DNA of 42,272 nt, taken from the NCBI GenBank assembly GCA_947623655.1, contig CANQHG010000015.1, forward strand, positions 1 through 42,272, in the 5' to 3' direction. The notes under the pieces are model-generated. The model did no database searches. It saw only the letters and a list, made by a program, of their open reading frames with translations, and had not been told where the DNA came from. The DNA comes from an uncultured Clostridia bacterium (lineage in GTDB: Bacteria; Bacillota; Clostridia; Christensenellales; Borkfalkiaceae). This document shows, piece after piece, positions 3,852 through 21,339 of this stretch; the stretch's first letter is position 1, and every line of letters begins with the position of its first letter. The position numbers and the translations under genes were made by a program.

Positions 3852-3881
3852 ATGTTATAGTTTTGACGCATCCGAGACTTT

Positions 3882-4562: not shown

Positions 4563-4575
4563 ATTATAATATATG

Positions 4576-4600: not shown

Positions 4601-4632
4601 AATTCCGAAAAATTGCCGCGCCAAAAGCGTCG

Positions 4633-4780
4633 TGTCGAAGGGTCACCGCAGCAGAGAAATAGGGTGATGGTTCGACGGGGCTCACCATGACGCTATTTGG
4701 AATGCTTCCGTAGAGCATGCGGCGAGATGCTTCGGTAAGGCTTCCGCAGACTTCGTTAAACGTTCCTTCTCAGCATGACG
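4633..4780. repeat. Composite intergenic repeat, copy A
   Basis: The left part (TGTCGAAGGGTCACC to GGCTCACCATGAC, 4633-4691) is a reverse-oriented copy of the inner element described at 6129-6218. The right part contains GCGGCGAGATGCTTC and ends with CTCAGCATGACG (4769-4780), identical to the right end of the element at 6042-6308. Its end overlaps the final codons of the U32 gene. Confidence 0.75.
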
Positions 4781-5978: not shown

Positions 5979-6041
5979 CGTTGTTTGTTGTGAATGGATC
6001 GTCGCACGGCGTGCCGCCGTGCGCTCATGCCGAGTCGCCCG

Positions 6042-6308
6042 CGTCATTCTGAGACGCGGTGGCCGCACGAAGTCCGATGACTTGACCTGAAGAATCACGC
6101 GGGGCGATTACAGCGGCGTTCTGATTACGTCATGGTGAGCTCTGTCGAACCATCGCCTTATTTCTTTACTGCGGTGATCCTTCGACACGACGCAAGGACA
6201 GCCTCGGCTCAGGATGACGCTATTTAGAACAGTGCCGTAGACAGTGCGGCGAGATGCTTCGGACAGTCTCTCGTAGACTGCGTTTGGATTTTGCGGCTCA
6301 GCATGACG
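6042..6308. repeat. Composite MITE-like repeat with an inner element
   Basis: The outer ends CGTCATTCTGAG (6042-6053) and CTCAGCATGACG (6297-6308) are imperfect inverted repeats, with subterminal GAAGAATC and GCGAGATGCTTC also matching inversely. In the middle sits a second palindromic unit of 90 bp. It runs from GTCATGGTGAGC (6129-6140) to GCTCAGGATGAC (6207-6218), with inner arms TGTCGAACCATC and GATCCTTCGACA. No ORF is credible. A related uninterrupted copy is at 40858-40994. These look like non-autonomous mobile or hairpin repeats. Confidence 0.78.
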
Positions 6309-6314
6309 CCGCAC

Positions 6315-6890
6315 TTATACTTTTTTTGAAACTGCCAGCCCTTCGCCGAATTCCTTGATCTCGGTGGAAAAATCGGGGTCGGACTGTAAGACGTCGAGAT
6401 ATTCGCGGATATGTTCGACGAGCATTCTCCGCTTTTTGGGCGGTTCGCCGCGCACCCAGCCAAAGAGGAGCACATCGTCCGAGAGAAGATACCCGCCCTC
6501 TTTCAGCAGCCGCTTGCAGTCGGGAAAATAGTTGAGATACTGCGCTTTCGGCCCGTCGAGAAAGATGAGATCGAAAGTTCCGCCGAGACACGGCAAGATC
6601 TCGCCCGCATCCCCCTCGAGAAGCGTCGTCTTCGCCGTGACGCCGAAGTGCACAAAGTTTTCCCGCGCCCGCGCCGCACGCGCAGGGTCTTTCTCGATGG
6701 CGGTGACGCGCTCCGCGCCCGCAAGAAGAAGCGCGATGGAAGTGAGCCCTTCCGCCGCGCCGATCTCCAAAATCTCTTTTGCGCCGATTTGGACGGCGAG
6801 AGACAGGAGGCAATCGAGCGTCTCGTCCGCGCAAGCGGGGTCGCGCCCCCTTTTTGCCTCCTCTCTGAGAGCGAAAAGTTCGGAGTTCAT
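6315..6890 (-). CDS. trmR: O-methyltransferase, TrmR/YrrM-like (tRNA 5-hydroxyuridine)
   Basis: This 191-residue class I SAM-dependent methyltransferase is of the small O-methyltransferase (CCoAOMT-like) family. Motif I is KEILEIGAAEGLTSIALL, followed by the acidic VTAIEKD, then FDLIFLDGPKAQYLNYF and GGYLLSDDVLLFGWVRG. The family includes TrmR, which methylates 5-hydroxyuridine-34 to 5-methoxyuridine in tRNA; the U32/TrhP-like gene immediately downstream supports that assignment. The start is the ATG at 6890, which overlaps the stop codon of the upstream gene in an ATGA arrangement (translational coupling); an in-frame ATG at 6902 lies inside that gene. The stop lies 6 bp from the end of a composite repeat. 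Confidence 0.85.
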   Translation of the reverse strand: MNSELFALREEAKRGRDPACADETLDCLLSLAVQIGAKEILEIGAAEGLTSIALLLAGAERVTAIEKDPARAARARENFVHFGVTAKTTLLEGDAGEILPCLGGTFDLIFLDGPKAQYLNYFPDCKRLLKEGGYLLSDDVLLFGWVRGEPPKKRRMLVEHIREYLDVLQSDPDFSTEIKEFGEGLAVSKKV

Positions 6891-7555
6891 TCTTCGCCCC
6901 ATACCGCGGCGAGCTCCGCCGCCCGTTCTTCATAGGTGCGCCCGAGCACTCTGTTGACGATGGGGAAAGGAGAATTCACCGCCGCCGCGGGCAAAGGCTC
7001 CGTGTTGTTCGTCTTGAACAGACGATGGAAAATTGCCCTGAGGACTTCGATCTGCTCCCGATAGATCTCCGCGTGAGCGCATTGCGTGCGGAATTCCTCA
7101 TATTCGGTACGGGCGGTAACGATTTCCCCCTCGTCGAGCTTGATGAGAATGTAGAAATAAGCCGTCATGTATTTCCAGCCCGCTCCCCCGCCGTGACGAA
7201 GGGCGTCGATATATCGCTTGGCCGTGGGAAGATCGTCGAGCGCCATGTTGACGCGCACATAACGCATGAGAGCGACCGTTCGGACAAGGAAAAACAATGG
7301 GCTTCTCATCTTTTTTTCGATGAGAGCCTTTTCCTCGGCATACCGCTTCTCATCGCACAGCTTGCCGCACTTGATGTTGAGATTGTCCTGTGTGATGACG
7401 GTGGCAAGGGCGAAGACGTCCGCGATAAGCACGACCGCGCCGATGATGCCCAAGTAGTAGTACTCATCGGAGAGGAAACCCAACACCGTACCGGCGATCA
7501 GCAGCGCCGCGGCGGCCGACAGACCGATGTAGACAAATAAATTCCGCTTCATCAT
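6887..7555 (-). CDS. Two-helix membrane protein with a helical cytoplasmic domain, unknown function
   Basis: This 222-residue protein has two N-terminal transmembrane helices (about 6-27 and 34-54) in a hairpin, then a soluble, mostly helical domain with TPR-like spacing (CDEKRYAEEKALIEKK, LDDLPTAKRYIDAL, LDEGEIVTARTEYEEF). No family is recognised. It has a clear AAGGAG six bases before the first ATG, and its stop overlaps the start of the trmR-like gene, so the two are translated together. Similar membrane-TPR proteins often sit near tRNA-modification or cell-envelope genes, but no role can be assigned. Confidence 0.78.
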   Translation of the reverse strand: MMKRNLFVYIGLSAAAALLIAGTVLGFLSDEYYYLGIIGAVVLIADVFALATVITQDNLNIKCGKLCDEKRYAEEKALIEKKMRSPLFFLVRTVALMRYVRVNMALDDLPTAKRYIDALRHGGGAGWKYMTAYFYILIKLDEGEIVTARTEYEEFRTQCAHAEIYREQIEVLRAIFHRLFKTNNTEPLPAAAVNSPFPIVNRVLGRTYEERAAELAAVWGEE

Positions 7556-7582
7556 GACATTCTCCTTATGCGCGATCTCGCC

Positions 7583-7625
7583 CCTTTCCTTGCTCGGCTC
7601 CCCCTTGAGGGGCGGGCAAGGCGTC
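7583..7625. repeat. GC-rich palindromic repeat of the CCCTCAAGGGGGAG family
   Basis: The gap between RNase J and the next gene contains GGCTCCCCCTTGAGGGGCGG flanked by CCTTGC and GCAAGG arms. The same core occurs at 33968-33997 and, in tandem, at 35651-35723, so it is a dispersed intergenic repeat able to form an RNA hairpin. Confidence 0.6.
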
Positions 7626-7628
7626 CCC

Positions 7629-9638
7629 TCACACTTCCTGTATGATGGGGACGATCATGGGGGATTGCTTGGATTTTTTGAAGATATGATTGCGGACGGC
7701 GCGGCGGACGGCGTTTGCATAGTCGTCGGAAGTTGCGCTCGCGGGAACGCCCTGCACCGCCTTGACGACGGCGGCCTTGAGGTCCCGCAAGTAATTTTTC
7801 TCGTCCGTGAACACAAATCCTTTGCTCGTGATGACGGGTTCGCCCACGATAATGCCGTCCGAGAGGCAGAGCCCGACGATAAACACCCCCTCCGCGGAGA
7901 TGTGCAGCCTGTCTTTGAGCGCTTCGCCCGTGGCATAATCTTCGAAGCCGTTTCCGTCGATGAGGGTCGCCCCCGACGGGAAACTTTCGCCCTGTTTGAG
8001 GGAGTCGTCGGTGACTTCGACGCAGTTGCCGATCTCGGGGATAAAGGTGCGCGACGGATCCATCCCCATCTCTTGCGCGAGAAGAACATGCCGCTTGAGA
8101 TGCCTGTATTCGCCGTGGATCGGGATAAAAAATTTGGGCTTTAACAGGGAGTGCAGGATCTTATGCTCTTCCTGGCACGCGTGTCCGGAGACGTGGATCT
8201 TTTCAAGGCTCTCATAGACGACGTTCGCCCCTCTCTTGTAGAGATTGTTGATGACGCGGTAGACCATTCTCTCGTTGCCGGGGATGGGATTGGCGGAGAT
8301 GATGATGGTATCGTTCTGTCCGATCGTCACTTTGTTGAACTCGCCGTCCGCCATGCGCGTGAGGGCGGACATGGGCTCGCCCTGCGAACCCGTGGAGAGA
8401 ATGACGATCTCCCTGTCGAAATAATTCTTTGTCTTTTCCACGTCGACGAGAACGCCTTCGGGAATGGAGATCTCGCCGATCTTGGCCGCCGCCTCGACGA
8501 CGGAGAGCATGCTCCGCCCCGAAAGCGCGACTTTCCGCCTGAATTTTACGGCGATGTCGACGATCTGCTGCAAACGGTGTACGTTGGAGGCGAACGTCGC
8601 GATGATGATGCGCCTGTCGGCATTTTCGGCGAATAAGTGCTCGAGGGTGGTGCCGACGACCTTTTCGCTCATGGTGTAACCCGCCCGCTCGATGTTTGTA
8701 GACTCGCCGAGATAGAGCAAAACGCCCCTCTTGCCGTATTCCGCGATCTCCTCGAGGTCGATGGGCTTGCCTGCAACGGGAGTGAGGTCGATCTTGAAAT
8801 CCCCGCTGTGGAAGACGACGCCGTAAGGGGTCTCCACGGCAAGCGCGAGCGCCCCCGCGATAGAGTGGTTGACATTGACGAAATTGACCGTGAAAGCGCC
8901 CGCCTTCACCTTGTCTTTGGGGGAGACGGTAATTTCTTTTACGTTATTCAGCCTGTGTTCGCGCAGTTTGTTGTCGACAAGAGCAAGGGTGAGTTTTGTA
9001 CCGTAAACGGGCACGTCGGGCAGCTCTTTGAGGAAATAGGGCACGCCGCCGATATGGTCTTCGTGGCCGTGCGTCAAAAAGAGGCCCTTTACTTTCTGTC
9101 TGTTCCGGGTGAGGTAAGAGATATCGGGGAACACGAGGTCGATCCCCGGCATCTCTTCGGTCGGGAAGATGATGCCCGCGTCGATGACGATGATATCGCC
9201 GCCGTATTCGAGGGCGGTCATGTTTTTCCCGATCTCGCCCACGCCGCCGAAGAAGAGGATTTTGAGCGGGCGTTTCTTTCTTTCCGCCGTCTTGCGCGGT
9301 TTCGGCGCTTCGGCGGACGCCTGCCGCTCCTGCGCGGGCCTGCGCTTCATCTCCGCGGACTTTGCGGGTTTTTCCGAAATCACGGGCTTTGCGGGTTTTT
9401 CCGTGAGCGCGGGACGGGGAGTGAACTGCGTTCCCTTTCCCTTGGCGCGGGATCTTTTCTTTGCCTTATATCCCGCCTCCTCCATCGCCTCGGGGGTGCG
9501 GAGTTCGCCCGTATGCTGTTTTTTGTCCTGTGCGGGTACGCCGTTTTTCTCGCGTTCCCTGCTGTATGATTCTAATCCGTTCAGAATGGCAAGCTCGATC
9601 GCATCAGAGTGCTTGCCGCTGTTTTTTTTGCCTTTCAA
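7629..9638 (-). CDS. rnj: Ribonuclease J with a long basic N-terminal extension
   Basis: This 669-residue metallo-beta-lactamase/beta-CASP ribonuclease acts in mRNA decay and rRNA maturation. The catalytic core starts near residue 122 (RPLKILFFGGVGEIGKN) and has the zinc motif LTHGHEDHIGGVPYF, HSGDFKIDLTP, the beta-CASP motifs ATFASNVHRLQQ and STGSQGEPMSAL, and SGHACQEEHKIL. The first 120 residues are an extra disordered, Lys/Ala/Pro-rich segment with short repeats (EKPAKPVI, EKPAKSAE), about 110 residues beyond the usual 555. The start codon is TTG, fixed by AAGGAG seven bases upstream. The upstream repeat-rich gene is 57 bp away on the same strand. Confidence 0.95.
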   Translation of the reverse strand: MKGKKNSGKHSDAIELAILNGLESYSREREKNGVPAQDKKQHTGELRTPEAMEEAGYKAKKRSRAKGKGTQFTPRPALTEKPAKPVISEKPAKSAEMKRRPAQERQASAEAPKPRKTAERKKRPLKILFFGGVGEIGKNMTALEYGGDIIVIDAGIIFPTEEMPGIDLVFPDISYLTRNRQKVKGLFLTHGHEDHIGGVPYFLKELPDVPVYGTKLTLALVDNKLREHRLNNVKEITVSPKDKVKAGAFTVNFVNVNHSIAGALALAVETPYGVVFHSGDFKIDLTPVAGKPIDLEEIAEYGKRGVLLYLGESTNIERAGYTMSEKVVGTTLEHLFAENADRRIIIATFASNVHRLQQIVDIAVKFRRKVALSGRSMLSVVEAAAKIGEISIPEGVLVDVEKTKNYFDREIVILSTGSQGEPMSALTRMADGEFNKVTIGQNDTIIISANPIPGNERMVYRVINNLYKRGANVVYESLEKIHVSGHACQEEHKILHSLLKPKFFIPIHGEYRHLKRHVLLAQEMGMDPSRTFIPEIGNCVEVTDDSLKQGESFPSGATLIDGNGFEDYATGEALKDRLHISAEGVFIVGLCLSDGIIVGEPVITSKGFVFTDEKNYLRDLKAAVVKAVQGVPASATSDDYANAVRRAVRNHIFKKSKQSPMIVPIIQEV

Positions 9639-9660
9639 ATGATGTCTCCTTGATGATAAA

Positions 9661-9687
9661 GAGAGAGCCGAAGGTCTCAGCTCTCTC
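9661..9687 (-). terminator. Hairpin between the repeat-rich gene and RNase J
   Basis: GAGAGAGC and GCTCTCTC (9661-9668, 9680-9687) form an 8-bp stem with an 11-nt loop. On the minus strand only TTTAT follows, so it is at best a weak terminator or attenuator. It could also be an mRNA stability hairpin in the RNase J leader. Confidence 0.5.
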
Positions 9688-9695
9688 GGGTGAAC

Positions 9696-11606
9696 TTAAA
9701 AATCCAAGTCCGATTTATCGACGATGGCCGTCTTGATGAGCCCTTCCGCGAGCAATTCCTCGTCCGTGCGGAAGAAGTACTGTGCGGCGTAATCGACGGG
9801 CTCCCGCTCCTCCTTGACGGCGCCGTTGCGCTCCATGCAAAGGTCGATGAGGCGTGTGACCTTCTTGACTGCCGCCTTTGTTTTGACCTTCACCATCATG
9901 GGCGTCATCTCATACATCTTGGTATCGCCCGCGAACTTCTGGTGATATACCGTCTCGGGGAATTCGTCGGGGTTGAGCGCGAGATACATGACGAGCGTCT
10001 TGCCGCGCATGCCGATCTTGATAACGGAGTCGTTCCCGATAAAGAATCTGTCGTTTGTCCAATTTATCTGCGAACGCACTTTCCCATAGGAAAGAATTGC
10101 GTTCTTGAGTGCGGAATAATATTCTTTCGTATTCTCGTCGCTGCCGATGATCTTGGCGACGAAACTCCTCTTGTAGCGCACCATCTTGGTCTCGTCGTCC
10201 ACAACGGGGATCACGACGGGCGAGGGCGCTTGCACTGCGGGCGCGGATGCGGGCGTCTCTGCGGCGGCCTGCGCGACGGGCACCACAACGGGCACCACGA
10301 CGACGGGCGAAGCCCCGGGCGTCTGCGGGATCTGTACAACGGGCGAAGCCCCCGGCGTCTGCGGGATCTGTACAACGGGCGAAGCCCCCGGCGTCTGCGG
10401 GATCTGTACAACGGGCGTCTGAAACGCGGCCGCCTGAACGGGCTCCTGCGAAGCGGGCTCTTGCGGAACGGAAATGGGTCCCTCGGCAACGGGCTCGGGT
10501 TCAGGCTCGGGCTCGGGTTCGGGCTCGTCATATGCTTCTGCGGGAGAAGCTTCCGCCGCCGTCAGTTCTTCCCGTACCGCATCGGGCTCGATTTCTCCCA
10601 CGATGCGCTCCAGATCCTGTTCGTCTCCCTTGAGAAGTTCCGCAACTCTGCGGGCGATCTTTTCCGCCGTCTCCTCGTTGAGCGTGCAGCCGTGTTCGGT
10701 GAGCGCGGCCGTCACTTTTTCACCGATGAGGTCGTAGTCGGTGAGCGGAATCGCTTCGGCGACTTCGCCCGCAAGGGTCTCCCCGTCGGTATGGGGAAGA
10801 AGTTCGGCGATCTCCGCGGCAAGCGACGAGGCGTCGGGATGGCCGAGCGCAGCGGCGACTTTATCGGCGATAAGGTCGTAATCGGGTTCGGGAAGAATGG
10901 TCGCGATCTTCTCGGCGAGGATATCGTAGGCGAAGTTGCTGTCGTCGAAATACGTCCCCCCGGACATCGCTTCCGCTTCGGCGGCCGCAGTCTCTTCCGC
11001 CTGTTCGGCCAAAGCCTGCCCCTCCGCTTCCGCGTTCTCCGTCTCCTCCGACGCTTCCGCGGCGGCAGTCTCCTGCGCGGCCTCGTTCTCCTCCGCATGC
11101 GCCGAAGTCTCCTCTTCGGGGGGCTCTTCGGATACGGAGGGCGCTTCAACGGCAAACGCTTCCGTCTCCGCAAGCGTCTGCGGCGCCTCCTCTTTTTCCT
11201 CTCTCAGAAGCGCGGCGACTTTCTGCGCAAGGGCGTCGAGATCGATCTCCGCGGGCATGGGAGCGGGCACGGCAAAGGAGGAGAGCTTCCCGTCGAGCGC
11301 TTTCAGGAAAAGCTCGTTCCGCTCGTCCATCGCTTGCAGGATATTCTCCTGCATTTTGGCGTGCTCTTTGCGGGAATAGTCGTAGATGTCTATATTCTGT
11401 TGGGCGAGATACTTGATCTCGGTGAGGATCTTTTCGATCCCGCCTTCGATCGCCTGCGTCAGCGCGTCGTAAGAAAACCCCTGCTGGGACGCTCCGTAAC
11501 GGTATTCTTTTTCCAGAGAGGTCTGCGTTTCCTTGATCTTCGCCGTGATCCCTCTGAACATGCCCTCGAGAATGCGGGAGTATTTTTCGTCTGCTCTATC
11601 GTCCAT
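9696..11606 (-). CDS. Large repeat-rich protein with a conserved C-terminal domain, unknown function
   Basis: This 636-residue, predicted cytoplasmic protein has no signal or membrane segment. In order it has a helical N-terminus (about 1-120); an Ala/Glu-rich acidic linker; a four-part helical repeat (YDILAEKIATIL, YDLIADKVAAAL, SSLAAEIAELL, YDLIGEKVTAAL); an EP dipeptide run; three exact VVQIPQTPGASP repeats; and a folded C-terminal region from about residue 475 (RSFVAKIIGSDENTKEYYSA to MRGKTLVMYLALNPDEF). That last block resembles a domain common in clostridial proteins of unknown role. The start is the ATG at 11606, with GAGGGTACC before it. A frame starting at 11645 is rejected because the promoter would place the transcript start at that ATG. 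Confidence 0.82.
   Translation of the reverse strand: MDDRADEKYSRILEGMFRGITAKIKETQTSLEKEYRYGASQQGFSYDALTQAIEGGIEKILTEIKYLAQQNIDIYDYSRKEHAKMQENILQAMDERNELFLKALDGKLSSFAVPAPMPAEIDLDALAQKVAALLREEKEEAPQTLAETEAFAVEAPSVSEEPPEEETSAHAEENEAAQETAAAEASEETENAEAEGQALAEQAEETAAAEAEAMSGGTYFDDSNFAYDILAEKIATILPEPDYDLIADKVAAALGHPDASSLAAEIAELLPHTDGETLAGEVAEAIPLTDYDLIGEKVTAALTEHGCTLNEETAEKIARRVAELLKGDEQDLERIVGEIEPDAVREELTAAEASPAEAYDEPEPEPEPEPEPVAEGPISVPQEPASQEPVQAAAFQTPVVQIPQTPGASPVVQIPQTPGASPVVQIPQTPGASPVVVVPVVVPVAQAAAETPASAPAVQAPSPVVIPVVDDETKMVRYKRSFVAKIIGSDENTKEYYSALKNAILSYGKVRSQINWTNDRFFIGNDSVIKIGMRGKTLVMYLALNPDEFPETVYHQKFAGDTKMYEMTPMMVKVKTKAAVKKVTRLIDLCMERNGAVKEEREPVDYAAQYFFRTDEELLAEGLIKTAIVDKSDLDF
10303..10410 (-). 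repeat. Three 36-bp in-frame tandem repeats
   Basis: Units at 10303-10338, 10339-10374 and 10375-10410 are identical except for one base in the first, and a partial fourth follows. They encode VVQIPQTPGASP three times in the Pro-rich linker of the protein at 9696-11606. Copy number is likely to vary between strains. Confidence 0.93.
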
Positions 11607-11650
11607 GGTACCCTCACAAGATTGGAAATTTTGATACTGCTTCATACTCT

Positions 11651-12571: not shown

Positions 12572-12588
12572 ATCCCTTTTCCGTATGA

Positions 12589-12613
12589 AAAACACGGGAG
12601 AAAACTCCCGTGC
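12589..12613 (-). terminator. Terminator at the end of the phage-head operon
   Basis: On the minus strand CACGGGAG, a TTTT loop and CTCCCGTG form a perfect 8-bp stem followed by five T (12589-12593). It lies 15 bp after the last phage-like gene, so the cassette ends with a proper terminator. Confidence 0.93.
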
Positions 12614-12627
12614 TCTTCAATAAATAT

Positions 12628-13122
12628 TCAGTTTACATACTGCGCAAGAAGTTCGTACAGCGTCTCGTAATACTCGCCGAGATAGGCGCGGGCGAGCGTG
12701 TCCATCGCGTACATCTGCAAGCGCGTCGCGGGGTCGGAAGTCACTTCCATGTAGTAATTTCTCACAACAAGGAAGCGCTGAGGCGGAGACAGCGCATAAT
12801 TGGGATTTTCGGGGTAGCGGTAGGGCCCCGCTTCGTTCCCCTCCGCCGCGATCGACTCGAAGTGAAGCTGACTGATGAGGTCTTCGCGCACTCCCGCGAT
12901 CTCCTCTTCCGCTTCCGCGTCGAGCCTTTCCTCTTCGAACGCCCTTACGTTGCTCCTCGCCGTGTTGTTGGCGAGCATGAAGTAAAAGAGCTTGCGTTTT
13001 TCCGCGTTGCAGGCGGCGACGATCGCGTTCTTTTTTGTCTGCGCCGCGCGGACCATCGCCATCTGCACGGACGACAAGTCCTGATATGCGGGATCGGAGA
13101 GGTCTATGATATCAATCGTCAT
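12628..13122 (-). CDS. Phage-cassette protein, unknown
   Basis: This 164-residue protein is the last gene of the phage-head operon. It begins MTIDIIDLSDPAYQDLSS and is largely helical, with a central acidic stretch (EEERLDAEAEEEIAG) and a conserved-looking aromatic end (RFLVVRNYYMEV, YETLYELLAQYVN). The start is fixed by GGAGG seven bases upstream; the gene overlaps the 3' end of the preceding gene by 11 bp. By position it could be a connector, plug or adaptor of the portal. No homologue is recognised and this role is only inference from gene order. Confidence 0.75.
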   Translation of the reverse strand: MTIDIIDLSDPAYQDLSSVQMAMVRAAQTKKNAIVAACNAEKRKLFYFMLANNTARSNVRAFEEERLDAEAEEEIAGVREDLISQLHFESIAAEGNEAGPYRYPENPNYALSPPQRFLVVRNYYMEVTSDPATRLQMYAMDTLARAYLGEYYETLYELLAQYVN

Positions 13123-14374
13123 CGCTCTTCCTCCATGCCGCCTCCACGGCGATGATGCGGAACGACGGGTCTTTCGAAACGAGCGAGAGCATCGTCTCCG
13201 CGCTCCTTGATTGCGCACATATCTTCACTTTTTCGCCGCTTTTCGCCGTGAACGTCTTCCCCGCCTTTGCATTCGTCATGAGCGCAAACGAGCCGTACCC
13301 CTCCACTCTGACCCATGCGAGGGCGCCGGACGGGGAGGAGGGAAGGGTGAGCTCGAGAGAGCAGTCGCGCCCGAAAGGAAGGCCGCCGTTTTCCGTGAAG
13401 CGGTAGACGGTCGAGCCGATGAGAAAGTTTTCCCCCGCCGCCGAAACCAGCCCGTTCTCGAGCAAAAATCTTCCCTTTTTTTGCAGAAAATCGTACACAT
13501 ATAAGCCTTTTTGCCCCATCTTCAGCGTCACCGCGGCGGCATATTTCCCCCTGAATCCAAAGCCCGTAACGGCCGCCGTGAAATCGATCTCGTTCCTGTA
13601 GCCGAGAAAGGAACAGGAGTTCCCGTCAAAGGCAAACAACCCGTCCGCCGTCATATAGCAGATCTCTTCCCCGCACGCCGCGACCGAACCCTCTATGATC
13701 TTCCCGCCCGCAAAGGGCATCTCCGTGAGGCAAAAATCGAGCGCTTCCCCCTCGGCCCTCATCTTTACGATCCCCCGCTCGCGGAACAGATAGAGCTTGT
13801 CGCGGAAAGAGACGACGGCAACGATCTTGCCTTTTCCCTCATCGAGGTCGATGTAAGCGGCCTTGTCGGGGTCGCGGTCGGACTGCGTAAGCCCCTCTTC
13901 CGAAAACGGAGCGGAGAAGCGGAGGCGAAGCCCGTCCGCCGAAAAGAGCCTTCCGTGATGCATCGCCGCGCACGTGCCGCCGACGGCCGTCTGCCACTGA
14001 ACCTTGCCCCCTTTCAGATAGCGCGTTGCGCCCTGTTCCACGCAATAAACGCCCTGAACGCCCGCTTCCGTCGTCTGCCGCAAGAGCGCCTTCGGCTCGG
14101 TTGCGATTCCCCCGATCACCGTCTGCGATCCTATCTCATACAACCCCTTTCTGTCGCTCAGATAGGCGTATATTTCCCCGTCGAGAACATAGATGCGGGT
14201 CGCCGCGGCAAGGAGGACGCACACCGTTTCATATCCTTCCCCGCAGACGAGCCCCGTGTTTGTGGGGCGCATGTTGTACAGCGCCGCCGTCGCCCCATCT
14301 TGCGGGCGGGAGGGATCGACGCGCACGGCCGCATACCGCCCATCGGGGGCGAATACCCTTTTTTCGTATCTCAT
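13112..14374 (-). CDS. Beta-propeller-like phage protein (P22 gp10-like by position)
   Basis: This 420-residue protein is built of short repeated beta strands with recurring pairs such as ATRIYVLDGEIYAYL, KIVAVVSFRDKLYLFRERG and EICYMTADGLFAFDGNS, typical of a beta-propeller. It follows the head-completion gene with an ATGA overlap and has a near-perfect AGGAGG site five bases before the ATG at 14374. In P22-like phages this position is taken by gp10, a propeller-like plug protein of similar length (about 470 residues). Homology was not tested and the assignment rests on order, size and strand pattern. Confidence 0.78.
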   Translation of the reverse strand: MRYEKRVFAPDGRYAAVRVDPSRPQDGATAALYNMRPTNTGLVCGEGYETVCVLLAAATRIYVLDGEIYAYLSDRKGLYEIGSQTVIGGIATEPKALLRQTTEAGVQGVYCVEQGATRYLKGGKVQWQTAVGGTCAAMHHGRLFSADGLRLRFSAPFSEEGLTQSDRDPDKAAYIDLDEGKGKIVAVVSFRDKLYLFRERGIVKMRAEGEALDFCLTEMPFAGGKIIEGSVAACGEEICYMTADGLFAFDGNSCSFLGYRNEIDFTAAVTGFGFRGKYAAAVTLKMGQKGLYVYDFLQKKGRFLLENGLVSAAGENFLIGSTVYRFTENGGLPFGRDCSLELTLPSSPSGALAWVRVEGYGSFALMTNAKAGKTFTAKSGEKVKICAQSRSAETMLSLVSKDPSFRIIAVEAAWRKSDDD

Positions 14375-14910
14375 GCCCACCTCCTCGAGCGGACGGAGAG
14401 GGAGCGGCGCAAGATCCCCGCGCACTTCAGCGCGTCGCGGTATTTTACCGCCCATACCTTGGCCTCGTCCGTCATGCCCTTGATCAGACAGTATTCGGAA
14501 GCGACGCCGAGGGCCATGAGGCGGGCGGAGATCTTTCCGCCGAGCTCGCTCTTGTCGCCGAGCCCCTTCTTTGCGGGCGCATAAGTATAGGTAACGTCGG
14601 CCGAACCGCAGGCGCAGAGCACGGCGTCTGCCGAGAGCGTGAATTTCAGCCCGATGCCCCCGCTCTTTACCGCACAGACGTCTACAGGGGGAGACGAAAA
14701 TGCCGAAAAGGGCAGCCTGCCGTTCTCAAAAAGAAGCTTTTCCGTCTTTTTGAGGGGATAGTCGTCGAGCGCGATCTCGTTTTCCACGACGTTGAAGCAA
14801 GTAAGAAGGGTTGCCGCCTCTCCCGTGGCCGTATCGCCCGCAAGAGCGGACGCAAGCCCGCTGTCGTCGAGGAGCGTGGCGGCAAGCGTTAAAACTTCCC
14901 GAACGGTCAT
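14371..14910 (-). CDS. Putative phage head-completion/connector protein (gp4-like by position)
   Basis: This 179-residue protein begins MTVREVLTLAATLLDDSG, typical of the helical N-terminus of head-tail connector proteins. It continues with NVVENEIALDDYPLKKTEKL and a beta-rich middle (KFTLSADAVLCACGSADVTYTY), ending in a helical, basic tail. It follows the coat gene by 11 bp, with AAGGAG seven bases before the ATG, and overlaps the next gene by 4 bp. Its place and size match P22 gp4-type adaptors. Function is inferred from context. Confidence 0.75.
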   Translation of the reverse strand: MTVREVLTLAATLLDDSGLASALAGDTATGEAATLLTCFNVVENEIALDDYPLKKTEKLLFENGRLPFSAFSSPPVDVCAVKSGGIGLKFTLSADAVLCACGSADVTYTYAPAKKGLGDKSELGGKISARLMALGVASEYCLIKGMTDEAKVWAVKYRDALKCAGILRRSLSVRSRRWA

Positions 14911-14921
14911 TTTGCGTCTCC

Positions 14922-16070
14922 TTATTTCTCGGTGATCCCGCTGAGCATCGCCTGTCCGCAGGGACGGTAGCACATGAGGTCGGCGTACTTTACGAGGGTC
15001 GCCGTAAACACGGGCTTCCCGGGAATCTGGCGGAGGATCTTGCCGTCCTCGTCCTCCAGCCACTGCCAATCGCAGAGCTGGTGCAACACGAAATCGTCTG
15101 TGTTGAGCAGATACATCGTCCCCTTGGGACAAAATCTGTCGGTGACGACGGGAATGCCGTTGAACGAGAGCGCCTTGAAGCCGCCTTCGAGCTCGATCGT
15201 CTCTATGGTGCGGTATTTGGAAAGGATCTCGACGAGCGCGCGTCTCACCCCCCATGAGCAGATGATGAAATTGATCTTTCCGCCCGACCTCTCCTCGATC
15301 TTGTCGATCGCGAGCTGGATCTCCTCTTCGGTGAGCGTCTCCACCGTCTTCATATACGGTTGAAGCCAAACGTTTTCGGAACGGCTCTGGCCGTAGATGT
15401 TGGACGTTGAAAAGATATCCTTGAGCCCCGTGAGTTCGTTGCCCCTTGCGCCCGACACGAAGAACACGCAGTCCTCCGCCGAAGTGAGCGTCAGGTCGGT
15501 CGTGATCGTATTGTTGTCTTTATTCACCGCCTTTACGATGATCCCCGTCTCTTTCTTGATGCCCCCCGCCGTCCAGAGGTCGATGACCATGCCCTCGGTG
15601 AAGTTTTGCGCGCTGTCAAGCGTGACGGTGTGGCCGGAAGTGGAGACAACTTTCCCGAGCGTCCCCATGTGATCGCCGAACAGCATGCGGCTCAGGTTGT
15701 AGCTCGCGCTCTTCACGAGCGTCTCCATCTCCTCATCGAGAAGGTTGACAAAGGCGCCGGCATTCGTCGAAGAGACGCGGATGGCTTTGTCGCTGATCTC
15801 GAGGGTGCCGTAAAGGTTTTTCAGCCCCGTGGTGAGCGTGACGTAGTTGTTGCCGTGTGCGACGGGAAGCGTTCCGTCTTCCGAACCCGCCCCGACGCCG
15901 CCGTTCATGCCGTAGCGGACAAGCTTTCTGATCTCTTTCCCCTCAACATTGAGCGCCGTCTGCCTGACGCGCGAAAGAAAGGGGTTTGCGTTATAGTTGA
16001 GTTGGTCTGTGATGGCGCTCAGATAATATCTTTTGAGCGCGCTGTCTGCCGTTCCTGTCGTGACTGTCAT
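14922..16070 (-). CDS. Phage major capsid (coat) protein
   Basis: This 382-residue protein has the usual features of an HK97-fold coat protein. The N-terminal MTVTTGTADSALKRYYLSAI and NPFLSRVRQTALN lead into a long region with TLEISDKAIRVSSTNAGAFVNLL and EMETLVKSASYNLSRMLFG. Later come a beta-rich insertion (VVSTSGHTVTLDSAQNF) and NFIICSWGVRRALVEILS with FNGIPVVTDRFCPKGTMYLL, which is typical of coat C-terminal domains. It sits between the scaffold-like and head-completion genes and has AAGGAG eight bases before the ATG. There is no cleavage motif or protease gene in the cassette. Confidence 0.88.
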   Translation of the reverse strand: MTVTTGTADSALKRYYLSAITDQLNYNANPFLSRVRQTALNVEGKEIRKLVRYGMNGGVGAGSEDGTLPVAHGNNYVTLTTGLKNLYGTLEISDKAIRVSSTNAGAFVNLLDEEMETLVKSASYNLSRMLFGDHMGTLGKVVSTSGHTVTLDSAQNFTEGMVIDLWTAGGIKKETGIIVKAVNKDNNTITTDLTLTSAEDCVFFVSGARGNELTGLKDIFSTSNIYGQSRSENVWLQPYMKTVETLTEEEIQLAIDKIEERSGGKINFIICSWGVRRALVEILSKYRTIETIELEGGFKALSFNGIPVVTDRFCPKGTMYLLNTDDFVLHQLCDWQWLEDEDGKILRQIPGKPVFTATLVKYADLMCYRPCGQAMLSGITEK

Positions 16071-16085
16071 AAAATTTTCTCCTTT

Positions 16086-16475
16086 TTATTCATTGTTTTT
16101 CAGGAAGCCGAGCGCGAGTGCGCCCGCTTCCCGGATAGACCGCGGCTTTTTGGGCGGGGCCGTGACGCCCGCGCCCGTTGCCGAGAGCAAAGGCACGCCC
16201 TTGAGCGATCTGAAATAATCGTCGAGCACACGCGCCTTCACCGCCGCATTTTCGCTGACGGCCCGAAAGAGACCGTCGTCGTCCATGACAGGGTGCGCCT
16301 CTTCTCCCTTCCGCTCCGCTCCTTCGAGGGTCTTTAAGCGTTGGCTGCGGCGGGTAAATTCCGCTTCAAGTTCCCCGTACGCGCGCACGAGGGCGTCAAC
16401 GCTCTTGAATTTTCCCGCGAGAAGCGCCTCTTGCGCCTCCGCCGCGGGTTCCTGTTTTCCGTTTTCCTCTTCCAT
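16086..16475 (-). CDS. Putative phage scaffolding protein
   Basis: This 129-residue acidic, helical protein contains AGKFKSVDALVRAYGELEAE and FTRRSQRLKTLE, a pattern common in scaffold-like proteins of phages of Gram-positive bacteria, and ends with a short Pro/Lys stretch. It sits between portal and coat, the standard place for a scaffold. AAGGAG lies six bases before the ATG. It is short for a scaffold (P22 gp8 has about 300 residues). Confidence 0.75.
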   Translation of the reverse strand: MEEENGKQEPAAEAQEALLAGKFKSVDALVRAYGELEAEFTRRSQRLKTLEGAERKGEEAHPVMDDDGLFRAVSENAAVKARVLDDYFRSLKGVPLLSATGAGVTAPPKKPRSIREAGALALGFLKNNE

Positions 16476-16476
16476 G

Positions 16477-18330
16477 TCATGCTCCTTTGCGGTGGGATCC
16501 GATGTGGCGCAACACCCTCTCTTTCACCGCCTTGTCTTCTTCCCCGCCCGAAAGCAGATAGCGCATATGTTCGGCGATATGAAGACTGTGGTCGTCATAC
16601 GGATCCGCCTCTACGTCGCGCTGCGCCAGCATGAGGTTCTCCCGCTCCGCCTTTTTGAGGTGGAGAGAAGAGATATCCCTCGCATTTTCGAACGACCCGT
16701 AGCCGAGGGCCTCGAGAACCCTGTTCCGCGTGTCGTCGTCAAACGCACCCTCCCCGTTTTTCAACAGCCCGAGGCGCAGAAGTTCGAGAATTTCTTCCCG
16801 CGTTTCCTCGGCTGTCCGCTCGTATCCCGTGTCAAACTGAACGTCGTCTGCGGAGATATCGCTTGATGAAAACCAGAAGAGTTCGGTATTCCCGCCCGAT
16901 CCCGTCATGCTGAGCACACGTTTTGCGGAAGCGAACTGCTTATAAAGGTGCAGAATCTGTTTGCCCGCTTCCTTTATCGCCCGCTCTACGCTCTCGACGC
17001 TCATCTGCATACGGTTCTGATCCTGATCGAGGAGAAGCTGCAATCCCACGCCCGATGTGACGTGCGTCGGATTCGCGGAGTTTCGGGAGATCTCGCTCAT
17101 GCCCGATACGAGAATAAACTCGTCGGAAATGCGCTCTTCCTCCTCATGAAACTCGCTCGGCATGCTGCCGCAGTCGAGGAAAGACGGTGCGGGCGAGCCT
17201 TGGCGGTAGATGAGGACTTTCCCGGGATAAAGTCCTTCCTCGCTCAGCTCGTCGGCGTCGACCGACCCATCCTCCGCCGCGATGACTCCCATTGAGAGGC
17301 GGTTCAAAAATTCGTGTTTGCGGTTTCTTACCGCGTTATACGCCCTCTGCAACGGAATCATGCGGTCTACGACGCAGGTCCCGAAAAAGGACCCCGCCAG
17401 CGGAATGCACGTCTGCCTGATAAAGGGCAGTGTGCGCTCCCCCCTGTCTTTATTGCGGTACGGAAGCGGTCCTTCGTACAGAAGCGTTTCCCCCGCTACG
17501 ATCTCGAGCCGTCCGTCGGGATATTTCTCCGTAGGACGGGAATACCGTTCGATGATGATGGCGGCGTCTTCCAGAACGGGATGCGCCGCACTGTCCATGG
17601 GCTTTTTCCAACCCCCCGCCTGCGAAAAAGGCACGAGCGGAAAATCGTCGATCTCCTCTCCCGCGATCTCCACGCCGTACCGTTCCCTGATCTCGGATAC
17701 GGGCACGGCCTTTGCGTGGATGAGGCTCTTCACTTCGTCCATGCTCTCCGCCGTGAGGGAGTCGGGATAGATCTCAAAGGGCGAGAGCGCGATGACGTTG
17801 ACGTCTCCCTCTCTCAGCGAATGTCCCGTTTCGTCGGTGCCGATGATGTTGCCGTCGTCGAAATTCCAGATAACTTTATAAAACGACGTGCCGCATGTCT
17901 CCGACCAGATACAGGCGCGGGAGACGATCTCGCCGAGGTCGAGTCTGTTTTTAACGGATCTCAGGATGCTCGAACACAGCCGCGCCGTTTTGATGTCTGC
18001 CTCGCTGTCCGAAAACGCGCGTACCTCGAGAACGGGCCGCACCCGCGCAAGACGGGCGAGACGGGTGTCGATCGTGGGGGCGATATGGTTGAAACACCGC
18101 CTCGACTGCCAATAGAACTCCTTGTCTTCCTGAATGAGCTCGCCCGCGGGAGAGATGTCGCAATATTGGTTCCCGCTCACGAAATTCATGTTGAGTTCCC
18201 AGCTCTTCTCAATGCTCCGCCGCGCCTCTCTGCGCGCCTCAAAATCGGCCTTGATTTCCGCAATAAGTCTGTTTTTTCTGTCTTCTTCCATCTTCTCTCC
18301 GCGTGTTTGCTGTTTGTTTTTTTCCGTCAT
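16477..18330 (-). CDS. Phage portal protein (P22-like)
   Basis: This 617-residue protein has the layout of a P22-type portal, the dodecameric ring through which DNA enters the head. Visible features are an N-terminal helix and SWELNMNFVSGNQYCDISP; FNHIAPTIDTRLARLARVRP, typical of the clip/wing region; GEIVSRACIWSETCGTSFYK; and a long helical C-terminal part (DQNRMQMSVESVERAIKEAG, EETREEILELLRLGLL). The first ATG has AAGGAG six bases upstream. The stop overlaps the ribosome binding site of the scaffold-like gene. No frameshift or internal stop is present. Confidence 0.9.
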   Translation of the reverse strand: MTEKNKQQTRGEKMEEDRKNRLIAEIKADFEARREARRSIEKSWELNMNFVSGNQYCDISPAGELIQEDKEFYWQSRRCFNHIAPTIDTRLARLARVRPVLEVRAFSDSEADIKTARLCSSILRSVKNRLDLGEIVSRACIWSETCGTSFYKVIWNFDDGNIIGTDETGHSLREGDVNVIALSPFEIYPDSLTAESMDEVKSLIHAKAVPVSEIRERYGVEIAGEEIDDFPLVPFSQAGGWKKPMDSAAHPVLEDAAIIIERYSRPTEKYPDGRLEIVAGETLLYEGPLPYRNKDRGERTLPFIRQTCIPLAGSFFGTCVVDRMIPLQRAYNAVRNRKHEFLNRLSMGVIAAEDGSVDADELSEEGLYPGKVLIYRQGSPAPSFLDCGSMPSEFHEEEERISDEFILVSGMSEISRNSANPTHVTSGVGLQLLLDQDQNRMQMSVESVERAIKEAGKQILHLYKQFASAKRVLSMTGSGGNTELFWFSSSDISADDVQFDTGYERTAEETREEILELLRLGLLKNGEGAFDDDTRNRVLEALGYGSFENARDISSLHLKKAERENLMLAQRDVEADPYDDHSLHIAEHMRYLLSGGEEDKAVKERVLRHIGSHRKGA

Positions 18331-18397
18331 ATTTTTCTCCTTGATCTTGTTTTTTGAATTAGGGGCAGGCGCGGGCCGGGCAAAGAAATGTTCGAAA

Positions 18398-18658
18398 TTA
18401 CGCCTCTTCCTCCCTTAACTGTCGTATAAGTCGCTGTTTTTCGGCTTCGAGCTGCTCATCGGTGAGCGCGGAATAGTCGATCCCGTCTTCCAGAAGAAGT
18501 TTCACCGCCTTCAGATCGGGCGGAACGTCTTTTTTCGTCTCCTTGCGCTTGACAAGTTTCAGCTCCCCCTCGCGGGCGTCGTATTCTTCCGTCACTTCTT
18601 CCACCGTGAACCCGAGCGCCACTTTCAGGATCGCGTCCTTTATCTTATCCTCCGACAT
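18398..18658 (-). CDS. Small phage-cassette protein between terminase and portal
   Basis: This 86-residue charged protein begins MSEDKIKDAILKVALGFTVE. The segment KETKKDVPPDLKAVKLLLE resembles a motif near the C-terminus of some small terminase subunits (KKxVPPDxxAxxFxL), which would make this a reduced TerS or a derivative; this is a weak resemblance from memory. It has a perfect AAGGAGG seven bases before the ATG and overlaps the terminase gene by 14 bp. In most phages TerS precedes TerL; here the candidate follows it. Confidence 0.72.
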   Translation of the reverse strand: MSEDKIKDAILKVALGFTVEEVTEEYDAREGELKLVKRKETKKDVPPDLKAVKLLLEDGIDYSALTDEQLEAEKQRLIRQLREEEA

Positions 18659-20102
18659 GTTTTTTCCTCCTTAATGCACGGATGCGGCGGTCTTTATCGC
18701 GCATGATCTCGCTCTCCGTCTCCTTTGCGGCGGCGCGCGGGCGGGTCATGAGATAGTATCTCAGCTCGTCCATCGCATGGTCGTCCCGTTTGACGGGGCT
18801 CTCGTCGTTTCCCCAAAAATATCCCTTGAATTCGCGTATCATGTTGGTGCAGTTCGAAAAGATATAGAGATCGGGCTGTCCGTTTGTGCGCGAGAGATAG
18901 CTCTTCACCTGCGCGATCCCCGCAAAAACATCTTTGTCCACCCGCATATCGGCGACGATGCCGCGCTCGTAAAAGAGTTCGGATACAGACTTGGCCGAAG
19001 AGAGCGTCCTCTGCCCCGCCGCGGGGTCTATGAGCGCACAGATCCTGCCCCTTGCGTCTCTCTTCCACCCCAAAATATCGCATATATGTTTGATTTTTTC
19101 TGTATGAAAGTCCACATCCCGCCCCGCCGCATAGTGCTCGGCGACGACATAGACATTCCCGTCGTAATCGGTGCAATACCAATGGGCGGAGAGCGGATTT
19201 TTGAGCCCCGGGTCGATGGAGATGACGTCTTGCCACGCCTCGGGGATGGGAAAGGGGTCGATGACATGCACCGTCTCGTCGAATTCGGGATAGACGAGCC
19301 CCTCGCGGGTACAGAATTTTCCGTATCGGCGCGATTGTAGCGTCGTCTCGTCCATAGTCGCCGTGAGCGCCCTGACTTCGCGCTTCGGGAGAAAGGGGTT
19401 GTCGGCCCATTCCATAAATTCATACCAGATCTGCGGATCGTTGCGCCTGTTGAGATAGATGTCCTCATACACGAACGTCAGCCCCTTGAGCGGGGTCATC
19501 GTGCCGAAGATATCCCCCTTTTTGTCGAGCACGCGCATGACGCACTCCTCGTAGACGTCCTGCGGAGGTTCTTCGTCGAACCAAACGAAGTCGAGAGAGC
19601 TCCCCTGAAAGCGTTCCCGCCCCTGGTCGCAGCTCTTGAACCCGATGACGGAGATCCCGCCGAACACGTTTTTGATGCGAATCTGGTCGATCACACCCGC
19701 ATGGGGCGCGTCTTTCCTGCCGCTCGTCATCACGATGTCGTCGATCCAATCGGGGCGGAGATAGTGCAATATTTTCTGTTGGGCAACGTCGCGCTGTACC
19801 TGTGCCGTCAGCGAGACGACCCAGCCGAACGCGTCCTTTCTGTTCTTTCTGTACGGATGGATCCCCCGCGCGAGCCAGACGGCTTCCACCGCGCCGCATT
19901 CCGTCTTCCCCGAACGGTTCCCCCCGAATACCCATCTATTCCGCTTCTTACATCTGTGAAAAGCAAGTTGTTTTTTGTTCTTTTTCCGCCCCGTGTTGTA
20001 GTGCGCGAGCGCGTCGTTTTCTCTCCTTTTTGTCTGTTCCCGTTCGATGGCGCGGATCTTTTGCAATATTTCGTTCATTTTCGATAAAATAAATGCTTTC
20101 AC
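18645..20102 (-). CDS. terL: Phage terminase large subunit
   Basis: This 485-residue DNA-packaging motor protein has an ATPase and a nuclease domain. The Walker A motif is RWVFGGNRSGKTECGAVEAV; Walker B is SLDFVWFDEEPPQD with the catalytic Glu pair; and the coupling motif is GTMTPLKGL. The RNase H-like nuclease follows: VISIDPGLKNPLSAHWYCTD, CALIDPAAGQR and the final acidic DDHAMDELRYYLM. The longest frame starts at GTG (20102), with an ATG at 20078; neither has a good ribosome binding site, although the rest of the operon does. The gene is intact and heads the head-only cassette. Confidence 0.93.
   Translation of the reverse strand: MKAFILSKMNEILQKIRAIEREQTKRRENDALAHYNTGRKKNKKQLAFHRCKKRNRWVFGGNRSGKTECGAVEAVWLARGIHPYRKNRKDAFGWVVSLTAQVQRDVAQQKILHYLRPDWIDDIVMTSGRKDAPHAGVIDQIRIKNVFGGISVIGFKSCDQGRERFQGSSLDFVWFDEEPPQDVYEECVMRVLDKKGDIFGTMTPLKGLTFVYEDIYLNRRNDPQIWYEFMEWADNPFLPKREVRALTATMDETTLQSRRYGKFCTREGLVYPEFDETVHVIDPFPIPEAWQDVISIDPGLKNPLSAHWYCTDYDGNVYVVAEHYAAGRDVDFHTEKIKHICDILGWKRDARGRICALIDPAAGQRTLSSAKSVSELFYERGIVADMRVDKDVFAGIAQVKSYLSRTNGQPDLYIFSNCTNMIREFKGYFWGNDESPVKRDDHAMDELRYYLMTRPRAAAKETESEIMRDKDRRIRALRRKKHVGG
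20061..20090 (+). promoter_or_regulatory. Promoter of the exported SH3-like protein gene
   Basis: TTGCAA (20061-20066), an 18-nt spacer and TAAAAT (20085-20090) predict a start near 20097. The promoter lies inside the first codons of the divergent terminase gene. Confidence 0.55.
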
Positions 20103-20131: not shown

Positions 20132-20842
20132 ATGAAACGCATTCTGTCCCTCCTGTTTTTTACATTGATGCTTTTTTCCGTCTCCCTGCCCATAGGCGGG
20201 CAAACAGTTTCCGCCGCCGAGGGGCGCTATGCCGTCGTGCCCGACGGCGACGTCTGGTTCTGCGCGGGAGAGAGCGAGAGCTCGCGCATCTTTTTGCTTC
20301 CCCGCTCCTACTATGTCAGGATCCTGAACGAAGGCCCCCTCTATTGCCGCGTCGAATATCTCGAAGACGAGGGTCCCTACAAAAAAATCACGGGATATTG
20401 CAAGACAGAAGACATCATCGCCGTCGACTACATCCCCGTGAGGCCCTATCTCAAAAAGGAGATCACGCTCTCCTATTCCCTGCCTGCGGCGGGAAGCGGC
20501 GGGCTCGGAGGTTCCTTTTCGAGCGTGGAAAAGACGTTCGTCTACTACGGGCAGCGCTACGAGGGCGCAAAACTCTACTACTATGTGCTCGCGGACGGAA
20601 CGTTCGACTTTATCGCCGCCGACGCCGAGCTCGCCTATGAGGAAAACACCGATTACCTCGACTACCTCGCCGCACAGGACACGGCCGCGCAAGGGGGAGA
20701 AGTTGCAAAGCCCGAAGCGGGCGGCATGAACGCCGCCATGATCGTGGTCGTATGTATCGCCTGCGTTGCGGCCGTTGCGGTCGCCGTGTTTGTGATCCGC
20801 GGCAAAAAGCCCGCGCCGCCCGACGATCAGACCGAAGATTGA
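20132..20842 (+). CDS. Exported single-pass membrane protein, unknown function
   Basis: This 236-residue protein has a signal peptide (MKRILSLLFFTLMLFSVSLP, cleavage near VSA-AEG), an extracytoplasmic beta-rich region and one C-terminal transmembrane helix (AAMIVVVCIACVAAVAVAVFV) with a short basic tail. Segments such as RYAVVPDGDVWFCAGESESS and ITGYCKTEDIIAVDY look like bacterial SH3-type domains. The C-terminal part of the 851-residue protein at 21609 has the same style. The ATG at 20132 is chosen for the signal peptide; its ribosome binding site is weak. It is divergent from the terminase gene and overlaps the 3' end of the next minus-strand gene by 16 bp. Confidence 0.78.
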   Translation: MKRILSLLFFTLMLFSVSLPIGGQTVSAAEGRYAVVPDGDVWFCAGESESSRIFLLPRSYYVRILNEGPLYCRVEYLEDEGPYKKITGYCKTEDIIAVDYIPVRPYLKKEITLSYSLPAAGSGGLGGSFSSVEKTFVYYGQRYEGAKLYYYVLADGTFDFIAADAELAYEENTDYLDYLAAQDTAAQGGEVAKPEAGGMNAAMIVVVCIACVAAVAVAVFVIRGKKPAPPDDQTED

Positions 20843-21339
20843 CGGCGCGGGCGGCCGATCTTTCTGCGTCCGTGCACCGAAAATTCGTTCCCGCGCGAAA
20901 GGGCGCACATCACCCGCGAAAAGAGCCCGTTCGTCTCCTCGAGAAAACGTTCCCGCGACCAACCGTTTTTGGCAAAATGTTCCGCCGCCTTTTTGAGAAG
21001 GCGGTTTTGCTTACGGAAATAACTGCGTTCCGAACAGCACAGCGCAAAATCGGCAAACTTGCCTTGAAGCACCTTTTTTCTGCGGAAATACTTGTATTCG
21101 AAGAGATAAAGTTCCTCTCTCGTGCAATTTTCCAGCATGTCGTCGACGAGACGGCAAAGCTGAAAGAGCGCCCTCTTTGCGGCAAAGTCTTTGAGAATGT
21201 TCCCAGCGACCTCTTCGGCAGAGTGCGGATCTCTGTAGGAAAGCAGGGCCTTGTTCTCCGCCGAGACCCCCACGGCGTCTCCGATCTCGTCAAGCGCGGG
21301 ATAGGCATACAAGATCGCCTTGACATAATCGTCTTTCAA
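20827..21339 (-). CDS. Small helical protein, phage late-regulator-like (ArpU/DUF1492 style)
   Basis: This 170-residue helical protein contains EELYLFEYKYFRRKKVLQ and CCSERSYFRKQNRLLKKAAE, resembling the sigma-like C-terminal motif of ArpU/RinA-type phage late-transcription regulators. The match is by eye and moderate. It starts at TTG, fixed by GGAGGAG eight bases upstream, and a strong 8-bp hairpin abuts that ribosome binding site. It lies upstream of the phage-head cassette but is separated from it by a plus-strand gene. It could have come from the same prophage, or be an unrelated host gene. Confidence 0.7.
   Translation of the reverse strand: MKDDYVKAILYAYPALDEIGDAVGVSAENKALLSYRDPHSAEEVAGNILKDFAAKRALFQLCRLVDDMLENCTREELYLFEYKYFRRKKVLQGKFADFALCCSERSYFRKQNRLLKKAAEHFAKNGWSRERFLEETNGLFSRVMCALSRGNEFSVHGRRKIGRPRRQSSV

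Follow-up and report, generated by a model that had tools for sequence, protein, structure and literature searches.

We analyzed a compact cassette of phage-type genes carried by the draft genome (1.66 Mb, 94.7% complete) of an uncultured Clostridia bacterium. The stretch examined, referred to below as the window, is an entire contig of 42,272 bases (C15). A preliminary description of this DNA had proposed that eight minus-strand genes at positions 12628..20102 form an intact phage cassette, kept as a domesticated DNA-packaging or particle-forming system, as a gene transfer agent (GTA)-like unit, or as a capsid-forming satellite. All eight frames are indeed open and the cassette is intact. The unit is, however, longer than was proposed, and extends upstream to position 21339, through the genes of a membrane protein and a regulator (Table 1).

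Table 1. Features of the cassette and its upstream genes, with positions in the window
Feature	Position	Strand	Evidence or remark
u170, putative ArpU/RinA-type regulator, first gene of the unit	20827..21339	- (same as terL)	PHROG 248 'transcriptional activator', 0.0017
SH3 protein: signal peptide, SH3-like modules, C-terminal membrane helix, short tail	20132..20842	+	divergent from terL
TerL, large terminase	18645..20102	-	PF03237, 1.2e-14; PHROG 2, 6.9e-31
small, C-terminal module of small terminase	18398..18658	-	PHROG 309, 9.2e-6
portal, P22 type	16477..18330	-	PF16510 P22_portal, 4.1e-18; PHROG 156, 1.3e-34
scaffold-position gene	16086..16475	-	function suggested by position; no family match
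major coat protein	14922..16070	-	PHROG 14242, 9.9e-55; NCBIfam NF033394 capsid_maj_Podo, 7.8e-72, above cut-off
g6, putative head-completion/adaptor	14371..14910	-	PHROG 2377 head-tail adaptor Ad1 in 2/22 aligned members, best 4.9e-6
g7, P22 gp10-like short-tail nozzle (beta-propeller)	13112..14374	-	predicted fold matches gp10
g8, helical last gene, shortened c15 coiled-coil family member	12628..13122	-	hhalign
intrinsic terminator	12586..12619	-	-24.5 kcal/mol, z -7.5; 0/200 shuffles as good

Gene content of the cassette and its surroundings

The genes had been called overlapping, which applies to only three of the seven junctions (terL/small, g6/g7 and g7/g8). Shine-Dalgarno-like sequences precede most starts, as had been noted, and the signal is weak or absent at terL. 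Translation of terL probably begins at the ATG at position 20078, which matches the predicted start of a database copy of 477 amino acids (aa). The clean terminator reported at the end of the operon was upheld; it was not listed by a consensus scan, probably because the T run takes part in the stem.

The P22-like gene order, said to continue as far as gp10, was also confirmed. In P22 the portal, scaffold, coat, adaptor and nozzle genes follow one another, and the cassette has the same order; its portal belongs to the P22 family, and the predicted fold of g7 (modelled without the first Met) matches gp10. The cassette had been considered tailless, which is true only beyond g7: this gene encodes a predicted tail nozzle, and no further tail gene was recognized at the locus. 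Besides the nozzle, two other points are new, namely the identity of the small gene, which encodes a truncated small terminase (TerS), and the membership of the regulator and the membrane protein in the unit.

In TerL, the motifs that we take to be Walker A, WFDEEPP, GTMTPL, IDPG and the terminal acidic motif are largely conserved among 100 sequences. The scaffold-position gene was recognized in all 50 loci of the host family that span the cassette. The window copy of g6 matched no family at E 0.01; its position presumably corresponds to that of P22 gp4. The product of g8 resembles the order-level alignments of the c15 family (hhalign 96%, E 1.9e-9) and its structure was predicted with a pLDDT (predicted local distance difference test) score of 85; it matched no sequence family and no PDB entry at E 0.001 (best 0.35). 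PHROG matches among 16 aligned c15/g8 proteins each came from a single member, mostly to endolysin or LysM families, and presumably stem from the LysM-like N-terminus found in locus L126. Such a gene content would allow head assembly, DNA packaging and neck closure. Unlike in P22, no full-length TerS, needle, ejection protein, tailspike, lysis or replication gene was recognized at the locus.

The flanks are host-like, in agreement with the preliminary description. Thirteen of 20 flanking open reading frames (ORFs) of the window matched Pfam families, every one of them host-type (including RNase J, U32 peptidase, BrkB, Spo0A, MurG-like glycosyltransferase, SAM synthetase, EF-Ts and ribosomal protein S2), and the other seven matched none. 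Among these 20 ORFs, the Pfam scan found no integration, replication, full tail or lysis genes such as a functional prophage carries. A 649 aa protein encoded at positions 9696-11645 has no Pfam match and contains three tandem 12-residue Pro/Gln-rich repeats.

Distribution, selection and inheritance

A search of 398 genomes of the host family detected the coat gene in 371, among them 187 of the 197 high-quality ones, and in all 18 genera; a general absence from relatives was thus not seen. Two or three matches are listed for 13 of the 371 genomes and one for the others. TerL was present in 111 of 200 sampled genomes of the order, with at least 56% identity in 110 of them and as a remote match (32%) in one (G427). 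The 110 genomes cover 18 of the 33 family labels of the order, and eight of these genomes have partial TerL matches only.

For the locus analyses, one genome per species was scanned and the best 80 of 201 loci were taken. The titles of the scanned loci name Clostridia, including Candidatus Gallimonas, Candidatus Scatosoma and one Christensenellaceae; Gallimonas is listed in the NCBI taxonomy only as Clostridia incertae sedis, and in GTDB terms we take the host family to be Borkfalkiaceae of the order Christensenellales. All eight genes were recognized in 49 of the 50 cassette-spanning family loci, the exception (L080) being without a recognizable g8. No full prophage was seen at this place in 96 loci of relatives and 20 order-level loci, whose flanks were judged by layout and example sequences. 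When 138 flanking ORFs of 30 loci (149 were chosen, and 11 long ones were excluded) were compared with PHROGs, no tail, lysis or capsid family occurred among the 25 of the 102 matched families that were listed, and one ORF, whose source locus was not traced, matched a 'DNA invertase' family.

Just after g8 in L045, L064 and other family loci we often observed what we take to be a SpoVAC-like gene (31 loci) and a small DUF1858-like gene (22 loci). Contigs listed as viral in IMG/VR (L082-L097) largely resemble pieces of the host locus, and L088, L090 and L091 include its first part, the regulator, SH3 and terL genes; in L095 and L097 the cassette ends after the coat gene and is followed by what looks, by eye, like a type I restriction-modification module.

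These data bear on the proposal that the cassette is a capsid-forming satellite or mobile island that uses the tails of a helper phage. The end of the gene set after the neck and nozzle would suit such an element, as would the variation of the 3' flank between species of the family and the DNA invertase match of one of the 138 ORFs; yet the locus is near-universal in the family, mostly as a single match, instead of being scattered, its trees are congruent with the host (see below), and both halves are kept where the operon is split. A small terminase without a DNA-recognition domain would also be unlikely to select the element's own DNA. The window genome, at the completeness given above, yielded neither a second PF03237 terminase nor a PF04860 portal, these two families being the ones searched for as signs of a helper phage. 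We regard a satellite as very improbable, and it was rejected on distribution, selection and trees.

Comparison of close species gave low median ratios of non-synonymous to synonymous substitution rates (dN/dS): 0.094 for TerL, 0.10 for small, 0.11 for the portal, 0.13 for g8, 0.16 for the coat, 0.19 for g6, 0.29 for the scaffold-position gene and 0.30 for g7, values that are approximate because synonymous sites are near saturation. The averages comprise 30 rows; four of these are repeats of a pair and one contains an identical pair, which leaves 25 different informative pairs. The pattern points to purifying selection, and no relaxation was seen; TerL and the portal rank with the genes under the tightest constraint, which suggests that selection acts on packaging itself. 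A decaying prophage remnant, retained by chance, would explain the losses found in some relatives (a shortened TerL match in G072, the end of the cassette after the coat gene in L095, the 27 of 398 genomes without a coat match), but can hardly account for the range of median dN/dS (0.09-0.30), for the presence of all eight genes in nearly every spanning family locus, or for the order-wide presence and the conserved TerL motifs. It was rejected on the same three grounds as the satellite, and we give it almost no credence.

Trees were built from 21 genomes of the order. The starting set comprised 30 genomes with RNase J. G429, with its two copies of the cassette, and G528 and G540, for which TerL was not retrieved, were set aside at the outset; a further six, each from the window's family, were removed because their loci fall short of the portal. 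The TerL and RNase J trees had 13 of 18 splits in common and the portal and RNase J trees 12 of 18, compared with at most three after permutation of labels (n=300). The phage-derived structural and packaging genes are thus kept by the host and inherited with it, as in GTAs. Repeated re-acquisition from a common prophage lineage, in place of one old domestication, would fit the mosaic appearance of the coat, g6 and g7 genes, which diverge faster, as exchange or diversifying pressure would bring about (the window and L011 are 88% identical in TerL and portal, 59% in the coat and 33% in g7). It would also fit the prophage-like relative in another family of the class (L164, described below) and the presence of two cassettes in G429. 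The shared splits of the TerL and RNase J trees, the recurrence of the regulator-SH3-terL order across families, and the low identity (about 26-32%) of the listed named phages all speak against it, and we consider this scenario improbable.

The two upstream genes are co-inherited with the cassette. The regulator, which we take to be of the ArpU/RinA type, was found in 53 of 55 family loci having at least 2.5 kb upstream of terL; nine of 20 aligned members matched PHROG 36 'transcriptional regulator' (best 3.2e-7) and seven matched PHROG 248. The topology of the SH3 protein was assigned by eye. Nine of 22 aligned members matched PF08239 SH3_3 (best 1.2e-10), although the window's own copy did not. 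Its gene was recognized in 46 of the 55 family loci, with a tblastn match upstream of terL in seven of the nine others. Among the 200 genomes of the order, an order-level SH3 profile matched 91 at E <=1e-20, of which 87 contain TerL; in 80 of these 87 the SH3 gene adjoins TerL in divergent orientation, with a median gap of 100 bases. Some TerL-bearing genomes of family f3 (e.g. G472) have a weaker SH3 match at the same place and stand outside the 87. An 851 aa surface protein encoded farther upstream was recognized only in f1 loci (49 of the 55 family loci and one of 20 order-level loci, the f1 one).

The operon has been retained even after it was split. In genus g45 of family f28, whose genomes measure 0.8-1.2 Mb, the regulator, SH3 and terL genes of four loci stand without capsid genes, and the portal lies elsewhere in the same genomes (e.g. 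about 40 kb away in G467). Eight second loci of this genus contain the small, portal, scaffold, coat, g6 and g7 genes, and a short c15 match is present in four of these loci. The idea that these four reduced-genome loci represent TerL without a capsid was dropped, as the portal was found elsewhere in the genome. The operon is still contiguous in two other f28 genera (L157, L158), and the cassette is retained in genomes reduced to 0.8-0.9 Mb. That parts working in trans have persisted through genome reduction is an argument for a function in the host.

Phage ancestry and the shortened small terminase

Named phages share 26-32% identity with the window coat protein (13 records) and 26-31% with TerL (in the 20 records listed out of 1,269). 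Among 245 sampled genomes of the class, TerL above 40% identity occurred outside the order in only six genomes of two families, and nine more had matches at 27-36%. One of the six, L164, belongs to another family of the class and is prophage-like, with a helicase and a full small terminase (named by eye), and its portal, coat, g6 and g7 match those of the cassette. Together with the distribution of TerL, this locus suggests that the source was a podophage lineage of Clostridia.

Other lineages carry an extra gene after g7 or between g7 and the last gene, which looks fibre-like by eye in L126, L088, L091 and L092; the window has no extra gene between g7 and g8. A fibre query (378 aa, from L124) found nothing in the window genome, but across 15 genomes it recovered only itself, so that this negative carries no weight. 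In G429, a single-contig genome, one of the two cassette copies (L125 and L126) encodes a small terminase of full length, and its last gene has a LysM-like N-terminus.

The small protein of the window (86 aa) matches only positions 190-243 of the 319 positions of PHROG 309, and the N-terminal helix-turn-helix is missing; no other protein of the window genome matched PHROG 309 at E 0.01. Of 113 distinct copies of the small gene in the fetched loci, 100 lie downstream of TerL and two upstream, and 11 could not be placed; when repeats are counted 110 of 126 are downstream, the match being preceded by a median of two residues. In phage-like relatives, this module makes up the C-terminal half of a longer protein encoded upstream of TerL: in L161, a 302 aa ORF matches the module at 186-262 (E 0.003), and in L126 a full-length TerS of 177 aa aligns with small. 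Both have, by eye, a helix-turn-helix-like stretch ahead of the module. Judged by sequence, the small terminase of the window has thus lost its DNA-recognition domain, a trait of GTAs, and because this domain is missing, packaging may be random.

Known systems and possible function of the cassette

Judged by described features, the closest known system seems to be FpGTA of Faecalibacterium, reported in 2026. As described in PMC12946183, FpGTA I/II of Faecalibacterium prausnitzii have a short operon encoding a TerS without an obvious DNA-binding domain, TerL, portal, scaffold and major capsid protein. The likeness, which was drawn from description and not from sequence, extends to the gene set, the podovirus-like type and the occurrence in gut Clostridia (PMC12946183). 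The same source presents FpGTA particles of about 40 nm with about 9 kb of DNA, whereas the cassette is known from its genes alone; it also describes a second operon, about 125 kb away in one strain, that encodes a baseplate, a fibre, holin and endolysin, and states that FpGTA was not found in Gemmiger or Subdoligranulum (PMC12946183). As the lysis and fibre genes of FpGTA lie in a second operon, a second locus is plausible here too.

Other particles share fewer of these traits with the cassette. RcGTA is siphovirus-like, with a full tail and lysis loci, and PBSX of Bacillus subtilis also has a full tail. RcGTA and related alphaproteobacterial GTAs resemble the cassette in being phage-derived and host-kept, with a TerS lacking a specific DNA-binding domain, but that TerS is encoded directly upstream of TerL and the remnant in the cassette downstream (PMC6854486, PMC7947584). 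Known GTA TerS proteins are described as about 10-50% shorter than those of phages (PMC6854486). PBSX is likewise a host-kept, phage-derived particle, called GTA-like beside FpGTA in PMC12946183, and differs in killing other strains; the match of the window TerL to a PBSX-family model was weak (1.4e-5) and below the cut-off.

Taken together, the distribution, the host-congruent trees and the low dN/dS support the view that the cassette is a domesticated podovirus-type system for DNA packaging and capsid formation, and we think it likely that the product is a GTA-like particle. The GTA-like unit of the preliminary description finds support in host inheritance, purifying selection and the truncated TerS; on these sequence-testable features the system is GTA-like, not a proven GTA. 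A number of observations weigh against this interpretation. (i) There are gaps in the distribution: of the 27 family genomes without a coat match, 10 are of high quality; in G072 (99% complete) TerL matches only over residues 10-284 and the coat match is weak (3.8e-10); G170 (98%) lacks a coat match, and its TerL is a fragment located where a contig ends; in 89 of the 200 order genomes, TerL was not found at E 1e-20; and G424 of genus g45 (100% complete) has neither TerL nor portal. (ii) As named phages are so distant, the functions rest on fold and family. (iii) The search at the family's locus revealed no lysis, receptor-binding or fibre gene, a second operon elsewhere not having been searched for systematically. 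(iv) Among the 100 downstream small copies, 17 have at least 45 residues before the match; these were not checked singly for a helix-turn-helix, and some arise because the ORF was taken from the first start. In L131, the small gene lies upstream of TerL and has no long N-terminus. (v) Besides the saturation mentioned above, a single g7 comparison (L041-L060) gave a dN/dS of 1.03. (vi) RNase J lies on the contig of TerL, within about 65 kb, in 10 of the 21 tree genomes, the TerL tree fails to recover f1, f6 and f32 as clades, and the portal tree fails f6. (vii) Four of the 91 genomes with strong SH3 matches lack TerL, and in seven of the 87 the two genes are not adjacent; weak SH3 matches, often to long proteins, are widespread (163 of 200 genomes at E 1e-4), including genomes without TerL; and L051 and L068 clearly have no SH3 gene at the upstream position.

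If the cassette does form a GTA-like particle, the ArpU-like regulator would turn on the operon, and coat and scaffold proteins would assemble a procapsid upon the portal. TerL, with a partner small terminase lacking the DNA-recognition domain, would start without a specific pac site, so that heads would be filled with host DNA. The neck would then be closed by g6 and the gp10-like nozzle g7, with g8 as a possible plug or ejection-side protein, and the SH3 membrane protein may have its role at the cell envelope, whether in release, docking or uptake.

The same genes could make DNA-filled heads that transfer nothing and serve instead for killing of kin (as PBSX), for disposal of DNA, or for its release for biofilm formation or repair. 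The gene set, selection and inheritance also fit such particles, the locus in this family yielded neither a fibre nor a receptor-binding gene, and PBSX is described as a tailocin that does not inject its packaged DNA (PMC12946183). A pure container, however, would not need the neck and nozzle genes that have been kept, and the strong constraint on TerL and portal suggests that packaging is selected. We regard particles without transfer as rather unlikely. Tentatively, the GTA-like particle may be seen as an old, order-level means of DNA delivery between cells of gut Clostridia, a minimal podovirus-type GTA that has neck and nozzle and lacks a fibre of its own, for which the SH3 protein, paired with the system from early on, would be the docking site or receptor on cells of that lineage. 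It would then be, to our knowledge, the most widespread GTA outside the Alphaproteobacteria.

Should particles be made, a whole family of gut bacteria and much of its order would carry a standing apparatus for moving their own DNA, with a bearing on the spread of genes in the gut. The TerS truncation, like the one thought to randomize packaging by RcGTA, would constitute a natural experiment in a different type of phage, and the co-inherited membrane protein could offer a handle on particle exit or entry. A survey reported GTA-like packaging in 'Christensenellaceae' in three of 25 events, and its operon search names other metagenome-assembled genomes (PMC12946183); the cassette may supply the operon for these events. 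A literature search found no published description of this locus, which is not proof that none exists.

A different compact gene set was observed in two genera of family f48 (L166 of G730, positions 3216-9994, and L167 of G659, positions 3753-10109). It consists of fibre-like, P22-like portal, helix-turn-helix and ArpU-like genes, a gene of about 100 aa and TerL, directly followed by a ruvX-like host gene (several of these names were assigned by eye). Its TerL shares about 34-36% identity with that of the window over part of its length, and the set is possibly a second domesticated packaging locus.

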